From Lysobacteraceae bacterium (GTDB taxonomy: Bacteria; Pseudomonadota; Gammaproteobacteria; Xanthomonadales; Rhodanobacteraceae), in assembly GCA_004143945.1 (NCBI GenBank), contig SEHB01000003.1:124001-188000 (forward strand): DNA of 64,000 nucleotides. The letters run 5' to 3'. Position numbers and translations under genes: made by a program. Under the pieces are notes generated by a model. It did not search any database and had not been told where the DNA came from. It worked only from the letters and a program-made list of their open reading frames with translations. This document shows positions 7,211 through 14,306 of the stretch, piece after piece. The stretch's first letter is position 1; each line of letters starts with the position of its first letter.

Positions 7211-7735
7211 TCAGTCGGAAGGCGGTAGCAACTCCATCGCCATCACCAGCGCATCCTCGCGCCCCTTCTTCGCGGGGTAGTAATGCGGACGGCGGCCGAA
7301 TTCGTTGAAACCGAGCGAATCGTAGAGCGCGATCGCACGCGGATTGGAAGGTCGCACTTCGAGGTAGACGCGCTCGGCGCGATGCCAGCGCGCGATGTCG
7401 AGCAGGCGACGCACGATCCGGCGCCCGAGGCCGTGGCCGTGCCGCGCGGGCGCGACGCAGACGTTCAGCACGTGCGCCTCGCCCGCACCGGTGGAAAGCA
7501 CGCCATATCCGATCACTTCGTCGGCATCGACGAGCACGATGCACTCGTAACCTGCGCGCAGGCAGTCGGCGAAGATCGCACGCGTCCACGGGAAATCGTA
7601 GGCCGCCGCCTCGAGCGCCGCGACGGCATCGAGGTCGTCCGCCTGCATGCGGCGGAATTCGGCTTCCGCCTGCTTGAGGATCGCGACCACCGGCAACAGG
7701 TCCTCGCCCGGCGCGGCGCGGGCGTCTCGCGGCAT
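7211..7735 (-). CDS. rimI: Ribosomal-protein S18 alanine N-acetyltransferase RimI
   Basis: GNAT acetyltransferase that modifies the N-terminus of ribosomal protein S18. The fold is clear: DFPWTRAIFADCLRAGY, the acetyl-CoA loop CVAPARHGHGLGRRIVRRLL, then NPRAIALYDSLGFNEFGRR and the C-terminal YYPAKKGREDALVMAMEL, all matching RimI. The ATG at 7735 gives 174 aa; a GTG at 7771 would extend it by 12 residues, and both are longer than E. coli RimI (148), so the true start may even be internal. It is the last gene of the leftward pssA-mla-holD run, 22-58 bp downstream of holD, the same holD-rimI pairing as in E. coli. Confidence 0.9.
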   Translation of the reverse strand: MPRDARAAPGEDLLPVVAILKQAEAEFRRMQADDLDAVAALEAAAYDFPWTRAIFADCLRAGYECIVLVDADEVIGYGVLSTGAGEAHVLNVCVAPARHGHGLGRRIVRRLLDIARWHRAERVYLEVRPSNPRAIALYDSLGFNEFGRRPHYYPAKKGREDALVMAMELLPPSD

Positions 7736-7793
7736 CTTGCCATGAATCAAGGCGATTGCATCCACGCGCACGGCGGCGCCGCGCCACCGTTCG

Positions 7794-8258
7794 TCAATGG
7801 CGCGTGCGATCGGCGGGCGCGAGGCCGCGCAGGATCCGCTTCAGTTCGCTCCACATCGCGCGCTTGGCCACGGCATCGCGCGCGAGATCGGCGGGTTCGG
7901 CCAGCACCACCCACCCGATCGACTGCTGGCGCGCCGTCGGCAGGCAGGCGCCGGCGGCGCGCGCGCGCGCGTCGCCGAACGCGACCAGTGCGTCCGCCGC
8001 GGCCAGCGCGTCCTCGTCGGCGCTGGCCTCGATGCGGCAGCCGACACGCGCGAAGGCGAACGCGCGCCGCACGTCGCCGAGCAGGCGCGCGGCGCCCGCG
8101 TCGTCGGCCAGCACGACGACGACGCGTCCATCGGCCGCAGAGCCGGCCGCGGCCGCGGCCACGGGCAGCGTCGCAGTAGCCGCGACCTGCGAACCGCGCA
8201 GCACGTACACGTCGATGCCGATCTCGGCGAGCCGGCGCAGGCTGGCCTCATCGCGCAT
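7794..8258 (-). CDS. holD: Probable DNA polymerase III psi subunit
   Basis: A 154-aa protein that I assign to HolD by layout rather than strong identity. It starts MRDEASLRRLAEIGIDVYVL, parallel to the E. coli psi start, which also reads RR..LQQLGI and then a short aromatic/Leu strand. It has a central VVVVLADD strand with a helix LLGDVRRAFAF, and ends KRAMWSELKRIL like the ARAALWQQI end of psi. It lies immediately upstream of rimI, as holD does in E. coli. Psi bridges chi to the clamp loader gamma/tau subunits; a holC gene is present at 3727-4152. The start overlaps the end of the preceding lipoprotein gene by 11 bases. The middle section is Ala-rich and poorly conserved. Confidence 0.72.
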   Translation of the reverse strand: MRDEASLRRLAEIGIDVYVLRGSQVAATATLPVAAAAAGSAADGRVVVVLADDAGAARLLGDVRRAFAFARVGCRIEASADEDALAAADALVAFGDARARAAGACLPTARQQSIGWVVLAEPADLARDAVAKRAMWSELKRILRGLAPADRTRH

Positions 8259-8865
8259 CGCGATGCCCCGCCTTCGCGCGCAGGTCGGCGTCGAAGCGCC
8301 GGAAGATCGTGTCGAGCGCGGCGCCGTAGGCATCGACGGTCGCCTGCAGCGTCGCGTCGGCGGCCGGCGCTTGCGCGCGGTAATAGTCGTCGATGATCGG
8401 TTCGCCATCGATCGCGCTCGCGCGCAGCTTGAGCGCCGCGACTGCAGTGAAGCCTCCCGCGTCGCCGGGCACGCGATCGAGACGCAGGATGACGCCGCCG
8501 ATCCGCACCGCGGGTCGGCTCTTGGGCAGTTCGTCGGTCACGGTCGACGCCGCGCCCGCATCACGCAATTGCGCGAGCAGGCGCCGCTGCACGATGCGCG
8601 TCGGCGGATCGGTCCAGAGCTGGTAATGGTATTGGCGCAAGCGCTGCGCGCCCGGGTCGAGTGCGTACACCAGCGCCTGGTCCGCGTAGAGGCCGTCGGC
8701 GCCGAACGCCTCGACCACGATCGGCGCATCGAACAGCGGCGTCGCATGCGGCTCGAGTGGCTGCGGTCGCGGCATCCGGTACCAGGTGAAGTCGGGCACC
8801 GCGGGCGCGCCGCCGCAGCCACCCAGCGCGAGCACGAGCACGGCCACGATCGCGCGCTTCGTCAT
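8248..8865 (-). CDS. ABC-type transport auxiliary lipoprotein (PqiC/DUF330-like)
   Basis: Predicted periplasmic lipoprotein working with the adjacent MCE protein. The N-terminus MTKRAIVAVLVLALGGCGG has a lipobox-like LGGC, followed by a DUF330/PqiC-type domain: DFTWYRMPRPQPLE, IVVEAFGADGLYADQALVYAL, LRQYHYQLWTDPPTRIVQRRLLAQLRDAG. Such proteins accompany MlaD/PqiB-type transporters and probably sit at the outer membrane end of the lipid channel. It is 205 aa, usual size. A very good Shine-Dalgarno sequence (AGGAGG, about 6 bases upstream) supports the ATG at 8865, which overlaps the mlaD stop. It may substitute for MlaC, for which no gene is seen here. Confidence 0.87.
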   Translation of the reverse strand: MTKRAIVAVLVLALGGCGGAPAVPDFTWYRMPRPQPLEPHATPLFDAPIVVEAFGADGLYADQALVYALDPGAQRLRQYHYQLWTDPPTRIVQRRLLAQLRDAGAASTVTDELPKSRPAVRIGGVILRLDRVPGDAGGFTAVAALKLRASAIDGEPIIDDYYRAQAPAADATLQATVDAYGAALDTIFRRFDADLRAKAGHRDAR

Positions 8866-9788
8866 TGCGGCTCCTCCTGGAGCTGGTCGGCTTTCGGCGA
8901 CAGGATCAGCCGGTTCGGATGGCGGCGGATCTCGCGGCTGAACTCGTCGAGGTTGCGGCTCGAGGACTCCAGGTGGTGGGTGATCACGTCCATGCGGCTC
9001 GACAGCGAGGCGAGCACGCTCGCGAGGTCCTGCACCGCGCGGCGGATGTCCTGCCGGTTGTCGCCCGCGATGCCGGCGAGGTCGCCGAGCGCGCGATCGA
9101 GCGTCTCGCGCGTCTTGCGCAGCTCGCCCGCGAGCGCGCGGGCCTCGCCGAGGATCTCGCCGACCGCGGCGCGATTCGCCGGTTTCAGCACGTCGTTGAG
9201 TCCCGCGGAGGCCTGGTTCAGGCGCTCGAGCAGCACGCGTGCCTGCTCGACCAGAATCGGTGCACCTTGGTCGATCGTGCCGGTGATCGAATCGACGCGC
9301 TCGGACAGGCTGCGGATCAACGGCGATATCTGCGTGCGCGTCAGCGTCGTGACTTCGCCCGCGAGCTGGTTCATCGCGGCGAAGATGTCGGCGCCCTCCT
9401 CGCCCCGGAGCTCCGCCCCCGGCGCGAGCATCTCGCGGCTTGCGCCCTCGCGGATCCCGATCGACACGTCGGCGAGCAGTCCGCTCGACTGCAGCCGCGC
9501 GATGCTGTCGACCGGGATCGGCCAGTCGCGACGCAGTGCGAGTTCGACCTTGTAGCGGGTGCCCTCGGCCGTGCGTTCCGGCACGACCTCCCCGACCTGG
9601 CCGATGCGGTACCCCTCGTAGAACACCGGCGCGCCGTAGCGCAGCCCCGTCACGTTGCGATAGCGCACGAGGTAGTCGTCGCTCGCGACGCTGCGGCCGG
9701 TGATGAGCGCGAGGCCGAACAGCAGCAGTCCGATCGCGGCGACCACGAAGATGCCGACCAGCGTGTAGTTGACGGTGTCGCGTCTCAA
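8862..9788 (-). CDS. mlaD: MlaD-family MCE-domain lipid-binding protein
   Basis: Membrane-anchored MCE protein that forms the periplasmic ring of an Mla-type phospholipid transporter. One N-terminal transmembrane helix (VNYTLVGIFVVAAIGLLLFGLAL) is followed by the MCE domain (YLVRYRNVTGLRYGAPVFYEGYRIGQV, about residues 38-120) and a long helical tail (about 150-290) rich in heptads, longer than E. coli MlaD (183 aa) and resembling MCE proteins with extended helical tubes. I chose the TTG at 9788 (308 aa) because MRRDTVNYTLVG matches family starts; a GTG at 9848, with GAGG nine bases upstream, would add 20 unconserved residues and is a real alternative. The stop overlaps the start of the auxiliary lipoprotein gene. 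Confidence 0.9.
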   Translation of the reverse strand: MRRDTVNYTLVGIFVVAAIGLLLFGLALITGRSVASDDYLVRYRNVTGLRYGAPVFYEGYRIGQVGEVVPERTAEGTRYKVELALRRDWPIPVDSIARLQSSGLLADVSIGIREGASREMLAPGAELRGEEGADIFAAMNQLAGEVTTLTRTQISPLIRSLSERVDSITGTIDQGAPILVEQARVLLERLNQASAGLNDVLKPANRAAVGEILGEARALAGELRKTRETLDRALGDLAGIAGDNRQDIRRAVQDLASVLASLSSRMDVITHHLESSSRNLDEFSREIRRHPNRLILSPKADQLQEEPQ

Positions 9789-9852
9789 GCCCCTTCCCCA
9801 TCCGGCACGCGGCGCCGGTGCGCCGGAGCCGCGGCGGAATGATCGCACAGGA

Positions 9853-10659
9853 TCACGCCTCTTCCTCGGTGAGCCGCCTGAGGTATGCGTCGGCGTCGAC
9901 GAGCACTTCGCGCGGGCGGCGATTGAGCAGATCCTGAATGCGCTCGATGCCCGATGCGCGCACGTCGGCGACGCTGCCGGTCAGCAGCACCTCGCCCTGG
10001 TCGAGCACGGTGATCGTGTCGGCGATCTTGAACGCGCTCTCGAGTTCGTGCGTGACGACCACGATCGTCATGCGCAGCGCATCGCGCAGCCGCAGGATCA
10101 GCTCGTCGAGTTCGGCCGAGACCACCGGATCGAGGCCTGCGGACGGCTCATCGAAGAACAGCAGGCGCGGGTCCATCACGATCGCACGCGCGAGCGCCGC
10201 GCGCTTGACCATGCCGCCCGAAAGCTGGCTCGGCATCAGGTCCTGGAAACCGCCGAGGTTCACCACCTCGAGCTTGATGCGGCTCATGATCCGGATCGTC
10301 GACTCGTCGAGCGTGGTGAGCTCGCGCAGTGGCAGCGCGACGTTGTCGCCGACCGTCATCGAAGTCAGCAGTGCACCGCCCTGGAACGACACGCCGATGC
10401 GCTTGCGCACGTCGAGCAGCTCGCGCGCGCTGGCCTTGCCGAGATCGATGCCGAACAGTCGCACGCTGCCCGATGCCGGCCGCTGCAGCCCGAGCAGGTG
10501 GCGCAGCAGGGTGCTCTTGCCAGAGCCCGAACCGCCCATGATCACGCGGATCTCGCCCGCTCCGACCGAGAAGTCGATCCCGTGGAGCACGCGCCGACGG
10601 CCATACCAGGCTTCGAGTTTCTCGACTTCGATCAGTGGCGGAGGGGCGTTCACGGTCAC
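9853..10659 (-). CDS. mlaF: MlaF-type phospholipid ABC transporter ATPase
   Basis: Cytoplasmic ATP-binding subunit driving phospholipid movement between the inner membrane and the MCE protein. It is 268 aa. Walker A is GGSGSGKST at residues 42-50, the signature is LSGGMVKRAALARA, Walker B is LLFFDEPSAGLDP, and the switch histidine is in VVVTHE. The signature followed by KRAALARA is typical of the Mla/Mkl subfamily rather than importers. GTG at 10659 overlaps the mlaE stop in a GTGA; a second in-frame GTG six bases on is an alternative. It lies between mlaE and mlaD in the operon. Confidence 0.93.
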   Translation of the reverse strand: MTVNAPPPLIEVEKLEAWYGRRRVLHGIDFSVGAGEIRVIMGGSGSGKSTLLRHLLGLQRPASGSVRLFGIDLGKASARELLDVRKRIGVSFQGGALLTSMTVGDNVALPLRELTTLDESTIRIMSRIKLEVVNLGGFQDLMPSQLSGGMVKRAALARAIVMDPRLLFFDEPSAGLDPVVSAELDELILRLRDALRMTIVVVTHELESAFKIADTITVLDQGEVLLTGSVADVRASGIERIQDLLNRRPREVLVDADAYLRRLTEEEA

Positions 10660-11453
10660 CGATTGAGGAAGTAGCTGAACACCATGTCGACCACGATGAT
10701 CCAGCAGATCGACAGCACCACCGCGCGCGTGGTCGCGCGCCCGACGCCTTCCGCGCCGCCACTGACCGAGAAGCCGGTGCTGACGCCGATCAGGGTGATC
10801 AGCAGCGCGAACACGACACTCTTTGACACGCCCTGCCAGACGTCGCCGGGATCGAGCAGCGACATCGACTGCAGCAGGTACGCCGCGGGCGTCACGTCGA
10901 GCGCGGGCGCGCTGTAGAGCGCGGCACCGAGGATCGCGACTGCATCCGCGAACACCGTCAGGGCGGGCAGCATCACGAGCATCGCGATCAGCGCGGGCGC
11001 GACGAGGAAGCGCACCGGCGCGATGCCGATCACCGCGAGCGCGTCGACTTCCTGCGACACCGACATCGACCCGATGCGCGCCGCGAGCGCCGACCCCGAA
11101 CGCCCGGCGACGAGGATCGCGGTGATCAGCGCACCGAACTCGCGCGTCACCGACTTCGCCACCGCGACGACGACCTGCGACTGTGCGCCGAATTCGCTCA
11201 GCGAGGCGACGAACTGGATGCCGAGCATCAGGCCGACCGTGAATCCGAGCAGGGTCACGATCGGCAGCGCATCGACGCCGATCTCGCGCATCTGCCGCGC
11301 GATCGCGGCGAGCCGTACGGGCTGGCCGACGCGCCATCCGGCGGCCGCGTAATAGAGCGAATCGAACAGCAGCACGGCCGCATGCCCGACGCCCGCGAAT
11401 GCATCGAGCGTGCTGCGCCCGATCGCGGCGAACGGGCGTGCCGGCGCGCTCAC
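10656..11453 (-). CDS. mlaE: MlaE-type phospholipid ABC transporter permease
   Basis: Inner-membrane permease of the Mla-type transporter, 265 aa. It shows the MlaE (DUF140) pattern: LPIVTLLGFTVGLMLGIQF, AKSVTREFGALITAILVAGRSGSALAARIGSM, then SQEVDALAVIGIAPVRFLVAPALIAMLVMLPAL and a C-terminal block STGFSVSGGAEGVGRATTRAVV. The EFGALITAIL..GRSGSA segment is the coupling helix facing MlaF. The GTG at 11453 overlaps the STAS gene stop (GTGA), so the operon is translationally coupled here. The frame stays open to 11705, but that extension would lie antisense-like across the STAS gene and has no conserved sequence. Confidence 0.93.
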   Translation of the reverse strand: MSAPARPFAAIGRSTLDAFAGVGHAAVLLFDSLYYAAAGWRVGQPVRLAAIARQMREIGVDALPIVTLLGFTVGLMLGIQFVASLSEFGAQSQVVVAVAKSVTREFGALITAILVAGRSGSALAARIGSMSVSQEVDALAVIGIAPVRFLVAPALIAMLVMLPALTVFADAVAILGAALYSAPALDVTPAAYLLQSMSLLDPGDVWQGVSKSVVFALLITLIGVSTGFSVSGGAEGVGRATTRAVVLSICWIIVVDMVFSYFLNR

Positions 11454-11788
11454 GCGAGCAGGGCGTCGGCAGCGGGCACGAGGTGGAACACGCGGTCGAG
11501 CCGCGCGAGTTCGAGCACCGCGCGCACCGCATCGCTGACCGCGACCAGCGCGAAGCGGCTGCCGCGCGCGCGCGCCGCCTGGAAGCCTTCGACCAGCGCC
11601 GCGATGCCCGAGGAATCGATGTAGCTCACGGCCGATAGCTCCACCCCGACCGGCGCACCACTCGCCAGCGCGTCGAGCACCTCGCGCCGGACGTCCTGTG
11701 ACCACGACAGGTCGACTTCGCCGCTCAGGCGCACCAGCACGTAGCCGTCGCCGTCCTCGCGCGCGACGCTGTTGCCTTGCATGTTCAT
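11450..11788 (-). CDS. STAS-domain protein (MlaB-like / anti-sigma-factor antagonist-like)
   Basis: A 112-aa single STAS domain. The core motif VSYIDSSGIAALVEGF at about residues 55-69 includes DSSG (58-61), the site phosphorylated in SpoIIAA/RsbV proteins. In Mla systems the STAS subunit MlaB binds MlaF and is needed for ATPase activity. In partner-switch systems the same fold is phosphorylated by an HATPase kinase and dephosphorylated by a SpoIIE/PP2C phosphatase. Here both contexts meet: the gene lies between a phosphatase-kinase gene and mlaE, overlapping both by a few bases. I therefore read it as an MlaB whose activity may be controlled by phosphorylation; that is inference. The first ATG at 11788 overlaps the upstream stop; a second ATG follows two codons later. 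Confidence 0.88.
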   Translation of the reverse strand: MNMQGNSVAREDGDGYVLVRLSGEVDLSWSQDVRREVLDALASGAPVGVELSAVSYIDSSGIAALVEGFQAARARGSRFALVAVSDAVRAVLELARLDRVFHLVPAADALLA

Positions 11789-13509
11789 GCCTCGTTGGCC
11801 TCGTCGTTGGTGCCGTCGGTGATGCGCTTGCGCAGGATCAGCCGGTTGCCCTCGCCGCCGGGCGCCGGTTCGATCTGCCATTCGTCCATGACCTCGTCGA
11901 TGAGCGCGAGACCGAAACCGCCACAGCGGCACTCGCCGAGCGGTTTCGCGCGGATGCTCGTCGCATCGACGCGCGGCGCGCGATCGGTCAGTTCGAAGCT
12001 CACGACGTGGCCCGCGCGCGACAGTCGCAGTTCGATGTCGCCACTGTGCGTGGGTCCGTAGGCGTGGCGGATGATGTTGGTGCAGGCCTCGTCGACCGCG
12101 AGCACGAGGCAGTCGCGCAGGCGCGGTTCGATGCCGATGCGGTCGAGCGCCTGGCGCAACGCGCCACGCAGGCTGCGCATCTCTTCGGGCCGCGCCGGCA
12201 CGCGTAGTTCGAGCAGGGATTCGGGCGCACCCGCGCGCGGCGCTTCGACCATCAGCAGCGTGGTGTCGTCGACGAGCCGCAGTTGCCTGAGGTCGGTCAG
12301 CAACCCGCGCAGGCGCGCATCGGTCGAAGCGGGGGCGTGGCGCGCGATCAGGTCACGCACGCCCGCGTTGCCGATCGGTTTGCCCGCGGCGTCGCGCACG
12401 TCGGTCGCACCATCGGAGAACGCGTACAGCGTGCCGCCCTCGAGCGCGACCTCGTGTTCGTCGAACGCGATCCCGGGGAGGATGCCGAGCGGAGGCCCGC
12501 CGGACGGGTACTCGGCGAACCTGCCGTTCGCGTGCACGACCACCGGCGGAAAGCCCGCGCCGGCGAAGCGCACGCGCGTGGCGGCACGGTCGCAATAGCC
12601 CACCACCGCGCAGACGAAGCGGCCGTCCTGCGTCGTTTCGCAGAGTTCATCGTTGACGCGCGCGAGCCAGCGCGAGGGATCGGCGCCGTCCTTGCCGGCC
12701 CAGCGCAACAGCGAGGCGGTGCGCACCATCAGCAGCGCCGCGTCGAGGCCCTTGCCCGAGACATCGCCGATCACGAAGCCGATGCGGCCGTCGGGCAGGT
12801 CGAAGTAGTCGTAGAAATCGCCCGAGATCTCGTGCGCCGGTCGATTCACGCCGATCACCGGGAAACCGTCGCGCCGGCGCCTGGGCAGCAGCGAGCGCTG
12901 CAGCCTGCGCGCGAGGTCGAACTCGCGCTTGAGGCGTTGCTGTTCGAGCAGCACGCTGGCCATGCGCGCGCTGTTGATCGCGAGCGCCGCGGGCGCCGCC
13001 ACGAGGTCGAGCAGTTCGGCGTCTGCATCGTCGAACGGGCGGCCGTCGCGCCGGTTCACGATCTCGAGCGCACCGATCGGACCCGCGGCGGTGCGCAGCG
13101 GCGCGCATACGAGGCTGTGCGTGACGAAGCCGGTCTGGTCGTCCGATTCGCGCCACACGCGCGGATCGCTGGCTGCGTCGACGACGAGCTGGGTCGCGTT
13201 GTCGGCGACCGTGCGCCCGACGATGCCCTGGCCGACTGCGAGCCGCGTGCCGCTGATGTCGACCGGCCCGACGCAGACGCGGCAATCCAGCACGCCGGTC
13301 AGCGGATCGAGCAGGAACAGCGATGCACCCTCGACCTGCATGAAGTCGACGACGCGATTCACGACCTCGGGCAGCGTCTGGCGCAGGTCCAGCGAGACCG
13401 CGAGCGCCTGCGAGAGGCCGGCGAGGAACCGCAGCGTGTCGGCGGCCCCGGCCGGCGGCGCGCCTGCGCCGGCGACGGTTGCCGGCTGCGTGGCATGCGC
13501 GAGGTTCAT
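11785..13509 (-). CDS. GAF-SpoIIE/PP2C phosphatase-HATPase fusion protein
   Basis: A 574-aa cytoplasmic regulator with three domains: a GAF sensor (about residues 30-195, with SLFLLDPLTGVLDCRVCVG and APLRTAAGPIGALEIVNR), a linker helix FDLARRLQRSLLP, a SpoIIE-type PP2C phosphatase (about 215-420; metal motifs EISGDFYDYFDL, GDVSGKGLDAALLM and FSDGATD), and a C-terminal RsbW-like HATPase (about 440-565; N-box LAVDEACTNIIRHAYG, then ELTDRAPRVD and CGGFGLALIDEVMDEW). Phosphatase and kinase activities for a STAS partner are thus on one chain. It overlaps pssA upstream and the STAS gene downstream by four bases each, pointing to the STAS protein as substrate. What the GAF domain senses is unknown. 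Confidence 0.9.
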   Translation of the reverse strand: MNLAHATQPATVAGAGAPPAGAADTLRFLAGLSQALAVSLDLRQTLPEVVNRVVDFMQVEGASLFLLDPLTGVLDCRVCVGPVDISGTRLAVGQGIVGRTVADNATQLVVDAASDPRVWRESDDQTGFVTHSLVCAPLRTAAGPIGALEIVNRRDGRPFDDADAELLDLVAAPAALAINSARMASVLLEQQRLKREFDLARRLQRSLLPRRRRDGFPVIGVNRPAHEISGDFYDYFDLPDGRIGFVIGDVSGKGLDAALLMVRTASLLRWAGKDGADPSRWLARVNDELCETTQDGRFVCAVVGYCDRAATRVRFAGAGFPPVVVHANGRFAEYPSGGPPLGILPGIAFDEHEVALEGGTLYAFSDGATDVRDAAGKPIGNAGVRDLIARHAPASTDARLRGLLTDLRQLRLVDDTTLLMVEAPRAGAPESLLELRVPARPEEMRSLRGALRQALDRIGIEPRLRDCLVLAVDEACTNIIRHAYGPTHSGDIELRLSRAGHVVSFELTDRAPRVDATSIRAKPLGECRCGGFGLALIDEVMDEWQIEPAPGGEGNRLILRKRITDGTNDEANEA

Positions 13510-14306
13510 CCGTCGCCGTGGGCACCGCCGCGCGCGGCCCGCTGGCGCCGGTTCTGCTGCAGGCCCCACAGCGTCATCACCGGACCCGACAGCACGTACA
13601 GCACCGCGATCGCGAACAGCACGCGCGGTGGATCGAGCGCAAGCCCGACCAGCACCAGCATCGCCGCCGGAATCCAGATGAACGGCACGCGATCCGACAG
13701 CGGCCACGCCTTGAAGCTGAAGTAGCGCACGCGGCTCACCATCAGCAGTCCCGCGATGACCGCAACGAACGGCGTCACGAAGTCCATGTCGGTCGCGTGC
13801 AGGCCGAACAGTCCGCCGTCCTCGACCGACCACACGAAGGACATGCACAAGCCCGCCGCGGCCGGACTCGCCAGGCCCTGGAAGTAGCGCTTGTCCGCGA
13901 CACCGACCTGCGTGTTGAAGCGCGCGAGGCGCAGTGCCGCGCAGGCCGCGTAGATGAAGGCGGCGGCCCAGCCGACCTTGCCCCAGCTGGGTCCGTAGGC
14001 GGTCAGCGCCGACAGCGACCACGTATAGAGCACCAGCGACGGCGCGAGGCCGAAGCTCACGAGGTCCGACAACGAGTCGTACTGGACGCCGAAATCGCTC
14101 TGCGTGCCGGTCAGGCGCGCGACCCGGCCGTCGAGGCCGTCGAGGATCGCAGCGACGAACACCGCGATCGCGGCCTGCGTGTAGCGCCCGCCGATACCCG
14201 CCACGATCGCGTAATACCCCGCGAACATCGCGGCCGTCGTGAACAGGTTCGGCAGCAGGTAGATTCCGCGCGGTGGCTTGCGCGCTCCGGTCGGGCTCGG
14301 TTCCAT
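13506..14306 (-). CDS. pssA: CDP-diacylglycerol-serine O-phosphatidyltransferase
   Basis: Integral membrane enzyme making phosphatidylserine, the precursor of phosphatidylethanolamine, from CDP-diacylglycerol and serine. The 266-aa protein has the CDP-alcohol phosphatidyltransferase motif DG-x2-AR-x8-G-x3-D-x3-D at residues 59-81 (LDGLDGRVAR ... DSLSD). It begins RGIYLLPNLFTTAAMFAGYYAIV, characteristic of the type II (Bacillus-like) PssA family. Eight or so hydrophobic helices fill the rest. The ATG at 14306 puts the conserved N-terminus close to the start; the longer open frame crosses the divergent promoter region. It heads the leftward lipid-transport run. Confidence 0.92.
   Translation of the reverse strand: MEPSPTGARKPPRGIYLLPNLFTTAAMFAGYYAIVAGIGGRYTQAAIAVFVAAILDGLDGRVARLTGTQSDFGVQYDSLSDLVSFGLAPSLVLYTWSLSALTAYGPSWGKVGWAAAFIYAACAALRLARFNTQVGVADKRYFQGLASPAAAGLCMSFVWSVEDGGLFGLHATDMDFVTPFVAVIAGLLMVSRVRYFSFKAWPLSDRVPFIWIPAAMLVLVGLALDPPRVLFAIAVLYVLSGPVMTLWGLQQNRRQRAARGGAHGDG

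Follow-up and report, generated by a model that had tools for sequence, protein, structure and literature searches.

The window analysed here, a stretch of 64,000 nucleotides from a Lysobacteraceae bacterium (assembly GCA_004143945.1, contig SEHB01000003.1, positions 124,001 to 188,000), encodes on its minus strand, from position 14306 down to 7211, pssA, a fused GAF-PP2C-HATPase protein, a STAS protein, mlaE, mlaF, mlaD, a PqiC-like lipoprotein, holD and rimI; all nine leftward genes of an earlier sequence-only reading were found in the order and range it gave. Comparison of genomes indicates that a partner-switching circuit encoded by these genes probably controls an ATP-binding cassette (ABC) lipid transporter of the Mla-Pqi chimera (Mpc)/Mla-like kind, with the kinase shutting down transport and the sensor phosphatase turning it on. 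We favour this reading because the phosphatase-kinase, STAS and transporter genes are inherited together in a kept order, because the STAS gene stays with mlaE-mlaF where the kinase gene lies elsewhere, and because Ser59 of the STAS protein aligns with Thr52 of Escherichia coli MlaB, where the exchange T52E weakens MlaF binding (Kolich 2020, PMC7367683). Gene content links the circuit with the transporter and not with pssA. The cassette suggests that lipid traffic between the two cell membranes is switched by phosphorylation.

The phosphatase-kinase was found in 43 of 197 genomes of the bacterial family (E<=1e-130) and the window-type MlaE (>=74% identity) also in 43/197. Both were present in 42 of the 44 genomes with either, and the two exceptions lie at contig ends (G114, kinase but no such MlaE; G100, MlaE with a kinase fragment). 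The gene order is not unique to the strain: phosphatase-kinase, STAS, mlaE and mlaF follow each other in 40/40 fetched family loci, which are those of the 43 phosphatase-kinase genomes minus the window genome, G176 and G114, and the order is kept far beyond the family. In three of the 40 loci the contig ends at or inside mlaF. A 4-bp overlap of the phosphatase-kinase and STAS genes is possible in 38/42 loci. pssA is located upstream in 38/40, the other two loci being cut by contig starts. One genome has a second STAS-to-rimI copy on a short contig (L119, G091:C2:1-6518); its MlaE scores as that of the main copy, and it is perhaps a duplicated contig.

The sequence-only reading had further assumed that transport is controlled together with phospholipid synthesis. 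Ten family genomes free of the cassette were used for comparison; pssA was found in nine, at ten loci of which two are one place, and the pssA search gave no match in G109. No cassette gene was present between pssA and rimI in 9/9 of these genomes, if a match at chance level is disregarded (L292, kinase part, opposite strand, 27%, E=0.03), and rimI followed within 1.5 kb after pssA in 10/10 loci, with holD matched in 7/10. Absence of the whole cassette between pssA and rimI in all nine relatives argues that it travels as a unit, with pssA only a neighbour; the cassette, as judged by this comparison, comprises the six genes that begin with the phosphatase-kinase and end with the lipoprotein and is gained or lost as a single block, and pssA, holD and rimI form its setting. 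Since, in addition, pssA was matched at only 0/28 (L193-L220) and 1/40 (L283) loci at class level, joint control with pssA, holD and rimI was dropped.

At order level, a phosphatase-kinase match with E<=1e-40 was obtained in 68/299 genomes; these genome searches score few candidates per genome, so that absences may be overstated. Among 24 new loci (L127-L150, of which five come from the family of the window genome), pssA was upstream in 24/24, STAS and mlaE were downstream in 21/24, and the kinase was a separate open reading frame (ORF) in four. The three loci without STAS and mlaE downstream all belong to family f9, in which the phosphatase-kinase is located with pssA at one site and the STAS gene elsewhere, directly before mlaE-mlaF, in 8/8 genomes tested. 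At class level, the phosphatase (E<=1e-40) was present in 51/369 genomes and this MlaE (E<=1e-55) in 46/369; 38 genomes had both, 8 only MlaE and 13 only the phosphatase (Fisher p ~1e-32, by a test that ignores relatedness), and three of the 8 MlaE-only genomes (G420, G512, G577) have a weaker phosphatase match adjoining MlaE. Of the 46 genomes that carry this MlaE, 42 have the kinase and STAS genes immediately ahead of mlaE; these cover 26/28 families, and in 38 of the 42 the phosphatase is encoded just upstream on the same strand. The four exceptions are G484 and G718, which have no STAS or kinase at the locus, G501, in which the unit lies by another MlaE, and G511, where the contig ends. 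The linkage of kinase, STAS and mlaE exceeds chance. In G440, G463 and G596, mlaF comes first after STAS, and in G501, G571, G681 and G776 STAS is followed by a different MlaE (33-38% identity); therefore, the regulator has been paired with several types of transporter. Finally, when two motifs from the STAS alignment were used to scan GTDB genomes, at least 548 relatives were obtained, and in the best 80 of the 548, which were examined, the kinase was encoded directly upstream of STAS in 80/80 and MlaE downstream in 74/80 named loci. The carriers include the cultured environmental species Dokdonella fugitiva, Tahibacter aquaticus and Rudaea cellulosilytica.

Phosphatase and RsbW-type kinase look intact. 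Pfam domains cover residues 40-178 (PF13185/PF01590), 239-422 (PF07228, phosphatase, 1.9e-39) and 437-561 (PF13581, kinase, 2.8e-25). The kinase residues E474, N478, D509, G530 and G533 are identical in 119/119 aligned rows and the four phosphatase aspartates listed in Table 1 are kept in 175-176/176 rows, some of which are paralogues; their functional roles we assume after RsbW and PP2C. RsbW (6m36_A) is the sole PDB sequence match of the kinase part at E<=0.01, and the RsbW-type kinase is the only strong HATPase_c_2 protein of the window genome, with 93 bits as compared to 36.1 for the next of 15 matches.

The closest solved relatives of the GAF part by sequence include 5w10, presumably the structure of Lcd1, 1ykd, an adenylate cyclase that we take to be CyaB2, and phosphodiesterase GAF domains. 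Lcd1 is named in a review as a Leptospira GAF protein activated by cAMP (PMC8846402), and the NKFDE motif is called essential for nucleotide binding (PMC4937426). The core of this motif is found in the GAF alignment (N152 130/130, K/R153 128/130, F159 129/130, D163 128/130), its last E is not kept in the cassette GAF domains. The GAF sensor of the window genome may thus respond to a cyclic nucleotide. Since a GAF domain in which the motif is degenerate was reported to bind neither cAMP nor cGMP (PMC4937426), cyclic-nucleotide sensing is a lead and no demonstration. Each of the phosphatases scanned (11/11) carries a domain of sensor type, either GAF or HDOD. HDOD replaces GAF at the N-terminus in 9/9 phosphatases picked for an N-terminus unlike the window GAF (L250, L256, L258, L261, L265, L266, L272, L279, L284); a tenth, L285, has GAF.

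The STAS protein scored 68.4 bits with the anti-sigma-antagonist model TIGR00377 of NCBIfam, above the cut-off of 53.45. An assignment as MlaB by the curated model NF033618 was rejected at 27.2 bits against a cut-off of 90, the reach of this model outside enterics not being established. The acceptor site D58-S59-S60-G61 is invariant in 119/119 STAS rows; in a larger set, of whose 156 rows 79 come from the scan that itself used a DSSG-containing motif, DSSG was present in 149/149 rows, plus 6/6 rows of a cyclase-type STAS. The first Ser, Ser59, is presumably the acceptor, after SpoIIAA, and falls on Thr52 of MlaB from E. coli K-12 in the alignment. STAS and kinase are separate ORFs in 295/295 loci and STAS and MlaE in 293/293 (the loci overlap and are not independent); a separate STAS ORF is what a diffusible switch would need. 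An AlphaFold2 model of the protein with a predicted local distance difference test score (pLDDT) of 91.5 was nearest in fold to TM1442 (template modelling score, normalised by query length, 0.85), followed by RsbV with 0.78-0.82 and MlaB with 0.61-0.70. E. coli MlaB binds MlaF by a face centred near Thr52, and MlaF requires MlaB for entry into the complex (PMC7367683).

On the transporter side, MlaE, MlaF and MlaD were recognised at the level of Pfam domains only; the NCBIfam cut-offs for the three were not reached. A scan of ten proteins gave no MlaC, and the lipoprotein belongs to PF03886; the transporter, which the sequence-only reading called Mla, therefore resembles Mpc in make-up more closely than Mla itself. 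The motif Y-x3-L occurs within the last 45 residues of MlaF in 92/92 STAS-linked rows, with the spacing of Tyr261 and Leu265, by which the E. coli MlaF tail packs on MlaB (PMC7367683). Of three MlaF rows from loci that lack STAS, two also contain it, whereas that of G484 has F for Y. Co-evolution was assessed by distance correlations over 36 loci with pssA and rimI removed, which gave 0.45 for kinase-STAS, 0.30 for STAS-MlaF, 0.03 for STAS-MlaE, 0.08 for kinase-MlaE and 0.13 for kinase-MlaF. This pattern is what a switch would give; mlaD and the lipoprotein, for which correlations were seen with all cassette genes tested (STAS-MlaD 0.43, PP2C-MlaD 0.62), weigh against such a reading of it and, therefore, the result is suggestive only. 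The window genome encodes two further MlaE systems, an mlaFEDCB-like one with MlaB on contig C22 (L122, about 4.9-8.3 kb) and an Mpc-like one on contig C8 whose MlaE carries a fused STAS domain of weak score (L118:7714-11314).

In the proposed mechanism, the kinase would phosphorylate STAS at Ser59, and phospho-STAS would be unable to dock on MlaF, upon which the transporter would lose activity. The GAF sensor (HDOD elsewhere) would turn the phosphatase on and STAS would be dephosphorylated; unphosphorylated STAS would then leave the kinase, bind MlaF as MlaB does and start transport. A more detailed version, which we put forward tentatively, is that a second messenger gates this envelope-spanning transporter: cAMP or cGMP on the GAF domain would set PP2C, the fused kinase would oppose it and the phosphorylation state of STAS would decide on ATP hydrolysis by MlaF. 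If this is true, one family of switches would serve both membrane lipid traffic and cyclic-nucleotide signalling, since a like kinase-STAS unit elsewhere adjoins a CHASE2 cyclase.

Several observations weigh against control of the transporter by the circuit. The strongest of them, directed against a transporter-only view, is what appears to be a sister cyclase system. MlaE was not downstream in 6/80 named loci of the best 80 of 548 (L357, L359, L360, L361, L364, L374), and in all five MlaE-less loci that were read (L357, L359, L361, L364, L374) a cyclase-like gene comes next after STAS; Pfam identified CHASE2 and a cyclase domain in the two scanned (L359:4376-6622, L374:4399-6648). The cyclase-type STAS keeps the same conserved residues as the transporter-type and, therefore, the kinase by itself may account for the conservation of STAS; a sequence mark telling the two types apart was sought and not found. 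By fold, moreover, STAS is closer to RsbV than to MlaB. E. coli MlaB T52A abolishes ATPase activity and the complex stays assembled (PMC5016091), and the variant has lost activity but not MlaF binding (PMC7367683, PMC5016091), so docking may not be the only way in which the acceptor site acts. Transporter genes without adjoining STAS or kinase occur in G484, in G718 and as the G501 copy on C45; in G484 and G718 the loci retrieved gave no match to the window STAS elsewhere. Conversely, kinase-STAS-mlaE lacks an adjoining phosphatase in G424 (L283), G582 (L267) and G701 (L269), and in G631 the phosphatase is on the other strand. In G424, a 30% match is located on another contig. As to the earlier claim that STAS is a phospho-switch of transport, kinase, phosphatase and a phosphorylatable STAS are tied to the transporter by comparison; given the sister cyclase unit and the missing transporter-specific mark, the transporter as output is what we infer. 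FHA-like and PPM-like genes were noticed by eye on the other strand at L359, L361 and L374; L281, in which STAS is followed by neither MlaE nor a cyclase, shares these FHA-like and PPM-like neighbours (by eye).

The five cyclase loci, two of them CHASE2-confirmed and with STAS equally conserved, would also be expected if the cassette encoded an ordinary partner switch with a different output (sigma factor, cyclase or other diffusible target) and stood beside the transporter only for shared expression. The greater likeness of STAS to RsbV than to MlaB by family score and fold points the same way, as does the free STAS protein SypA, which acts on a target given as unknown (PMC8256260). However, STAS remains with mlaE-mlaF where the kinase is elsewhere (8/8), kinase-STAS-mlaE spans 26 families, and no other STAS gene accompanies this transporter, whereas the genome's two other MlaE systems each have one (MlaB and the weak fused domain). 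Furthermore, the cassette contains no sigma gene, sigma factors elsewhere not having been looked for. We consider this explanation unlikely. Still less probable is that STAS serves constitutively in assembly, as a subunit like MlaB, and that kinase and phosphatase only set the assembled amount or act in slow quality control; E. coli MlaB is indeed needed for MlaF assembly (PMC7367683, PMC5016091), but the sensor-type domain on every scanned phosphatase (11/11) speaks for signal input instead. That kinase and phosphatase also act on the canonical MlaB and on the STAS fused to the third MlaE is very improbable, since some MlaE is present in 197/197 family genomes and this kinase in 43, and the D-S-S-G context is not kept in the window genome's own two copies, even though these have Ser or Thr in the acceptor column and the genome has one strong RsbW-type kinase.

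The operon in the window is real. Six of eight gene junctions overlap by 4 or 11 bp, in line with the earlier statement that most overlap by 1-11 bp; mlaF/mlaD and holD/rimI do not overlap. Overlaps of 4 bp join pssA to the phosphatase-kinase gene (13506-13509), the latter to STAS (11785-11788), STAS to mlaE (11450-11453), mlaE to mlaF, provided that mlaF starts at GTG 10659, and mlaD to the PqiC-like gene (8862-8865), and 11 bp are shared by the PqiC-like gene and holD (8248-8258). Between mlaF and mlaD there is a gap of 64 bp if mlaD starts at TTG 9788. Short gene overlaps are frequent among bacteria and, taken alone, are weak evidence. The holD candidate had no Pfam or NCBIfam match and is named for its position beside rimI, after a holD-rimI pairing that we assume for E. 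coli.

Table 1 Genes and protein parts of the operon in the window.
Feature	Position	Strand	Evidence
pssA (CDP-diacylglycerol-serine phosphatidyltransferase), neighbour outside the cassette	13506..14306	-	PF01066 1.3e-17; TIGR00473 107.4 bits, cut-off 107
GAF-PP2C(SpoIIE)-HATPase_c_2, predicted sensor phosphatase fused to RsbW-type serine kinase, 574 aa	11785..13509	-	Pfam domains and conserved active-site residues
GAF part, residues 1-185	12955..13509	-	PDB sequence matches 5w10 3.1e-12, 1ykd 1.6e-11; N152-K/R153-x5-F159-x3-D163 kept
PP2C phosphatase part, residues 186-425	12235..12954	-	PDB 3es2 3.8e-13, 3eq2; D249, D366, D414, D415 conserved
RsbW-type kinase part, residues 426-574	11788..12234	-	RsbW 6m36_A 2.8e-9
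Free STAS protein, putative switch, 112 aa, acceptor site D58-S59-S60-G61	11450..11788	-	PF01740 4.1e-18; TIGR00377 above cut-off
mlaE-type permease, 265 aa, without attached STAS domain	10656..11453	-	PF02405 2.9e-69
mlaF-type ATPase, C-terminal Y-x3-L	9853..10659	-	PF00005 4.7e-29; top NCBIfam match MlaF 190 bits, below cut-off 441
Long mlaD-type MCE protein, 308 aa, TTG start uncertain	8862..9788	-	PF02470 1e-10
PqiC-like auxiliary lipoprotein	8248..8865	-	PF03886 3.1e-11
Probable holD, neighbour	7794..8258	-	Position before rimI; no Pfam/NCBIfam match
rimI, neighbour	7211..7735	-	TIGR01575 122.8 bits, cut-off 86.4

The regulation of Mla-type transporters is posed as an open question by Thong 2016 (PMC5016091) and Kolich 2020 (PMC7367683). 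Phosphorylation of MlaB at Thr52 was proposed in both, so phospho-control of an Mla transporter is not as undescribed as the sequence-only reading had supposed; in the parts available neither paper names a kinase, and according to Kolich 2020 MlaB phosphorylation had at that time no experimental support (PMC7367683). A literature search joining STAS, SpoIIE or partner switching to MlaE/MlaB revealed no kinase or phosphatase for an Mla-type transporter in the available text of openly licensed papers, most subscription papers lying outside its scope. Partner switching is known and MlaB phosphorylation has already been proposed; the new part is a kinase and a phosphatase encoded together with an Mla-type transporter, a cassette that makes the question of MlaB-type phosphorylation directly testable. 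If the proposed control of the transporter is true, partner switching would be extended from transcription to the control of an ABC transporter.

Four kinds of known system come closest to the cassette. Like RsbU-RsbV-RsbW and SpoIIE-SpoIIAA-SpoIIAB, it encodes a sensor PP2C phosphatase, a GHKL serine kinase and a STAS protein with an acceptor Ser, but in place of a sigma factor, which was not looked for elsewhere in the genome, a lipid ABC transporter follows. A phosphatase-kinase with a free STAS protein is also known from HsbR-HsbA of Pseudomonas. In SypE-SypA of Vibrio fischeri, likewise, one protein acts as both kinase and phosphatase and a free STAS protein is phosphorylated at a single Ser (PMC8256260), whereas the sensor of the cassette is GAF or HDOD and its output genes would be mlaEFD. 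With E. coli MlaFEDB, the cassette shares MlaE, MlaF, MlaD and a STAS protein, with Ser59 on Thr52 and Y-x3-L near the end of MlaF; unlike E. coli Mla, it has no mlaC, its STAS protein is RsbV-like, a kinase and a phosphatase are present and the lipoprotein is PqiC-like. MlaE, MlaF, a long MlaD, a PqiC-like lipoprotein and the absence of MlaC are common to the cassette and Mpc of Brucella, but STAS is fused to MlaE in Mpc and is encoded by a separate gene beside the kinase in the cassette (PMC12436622).

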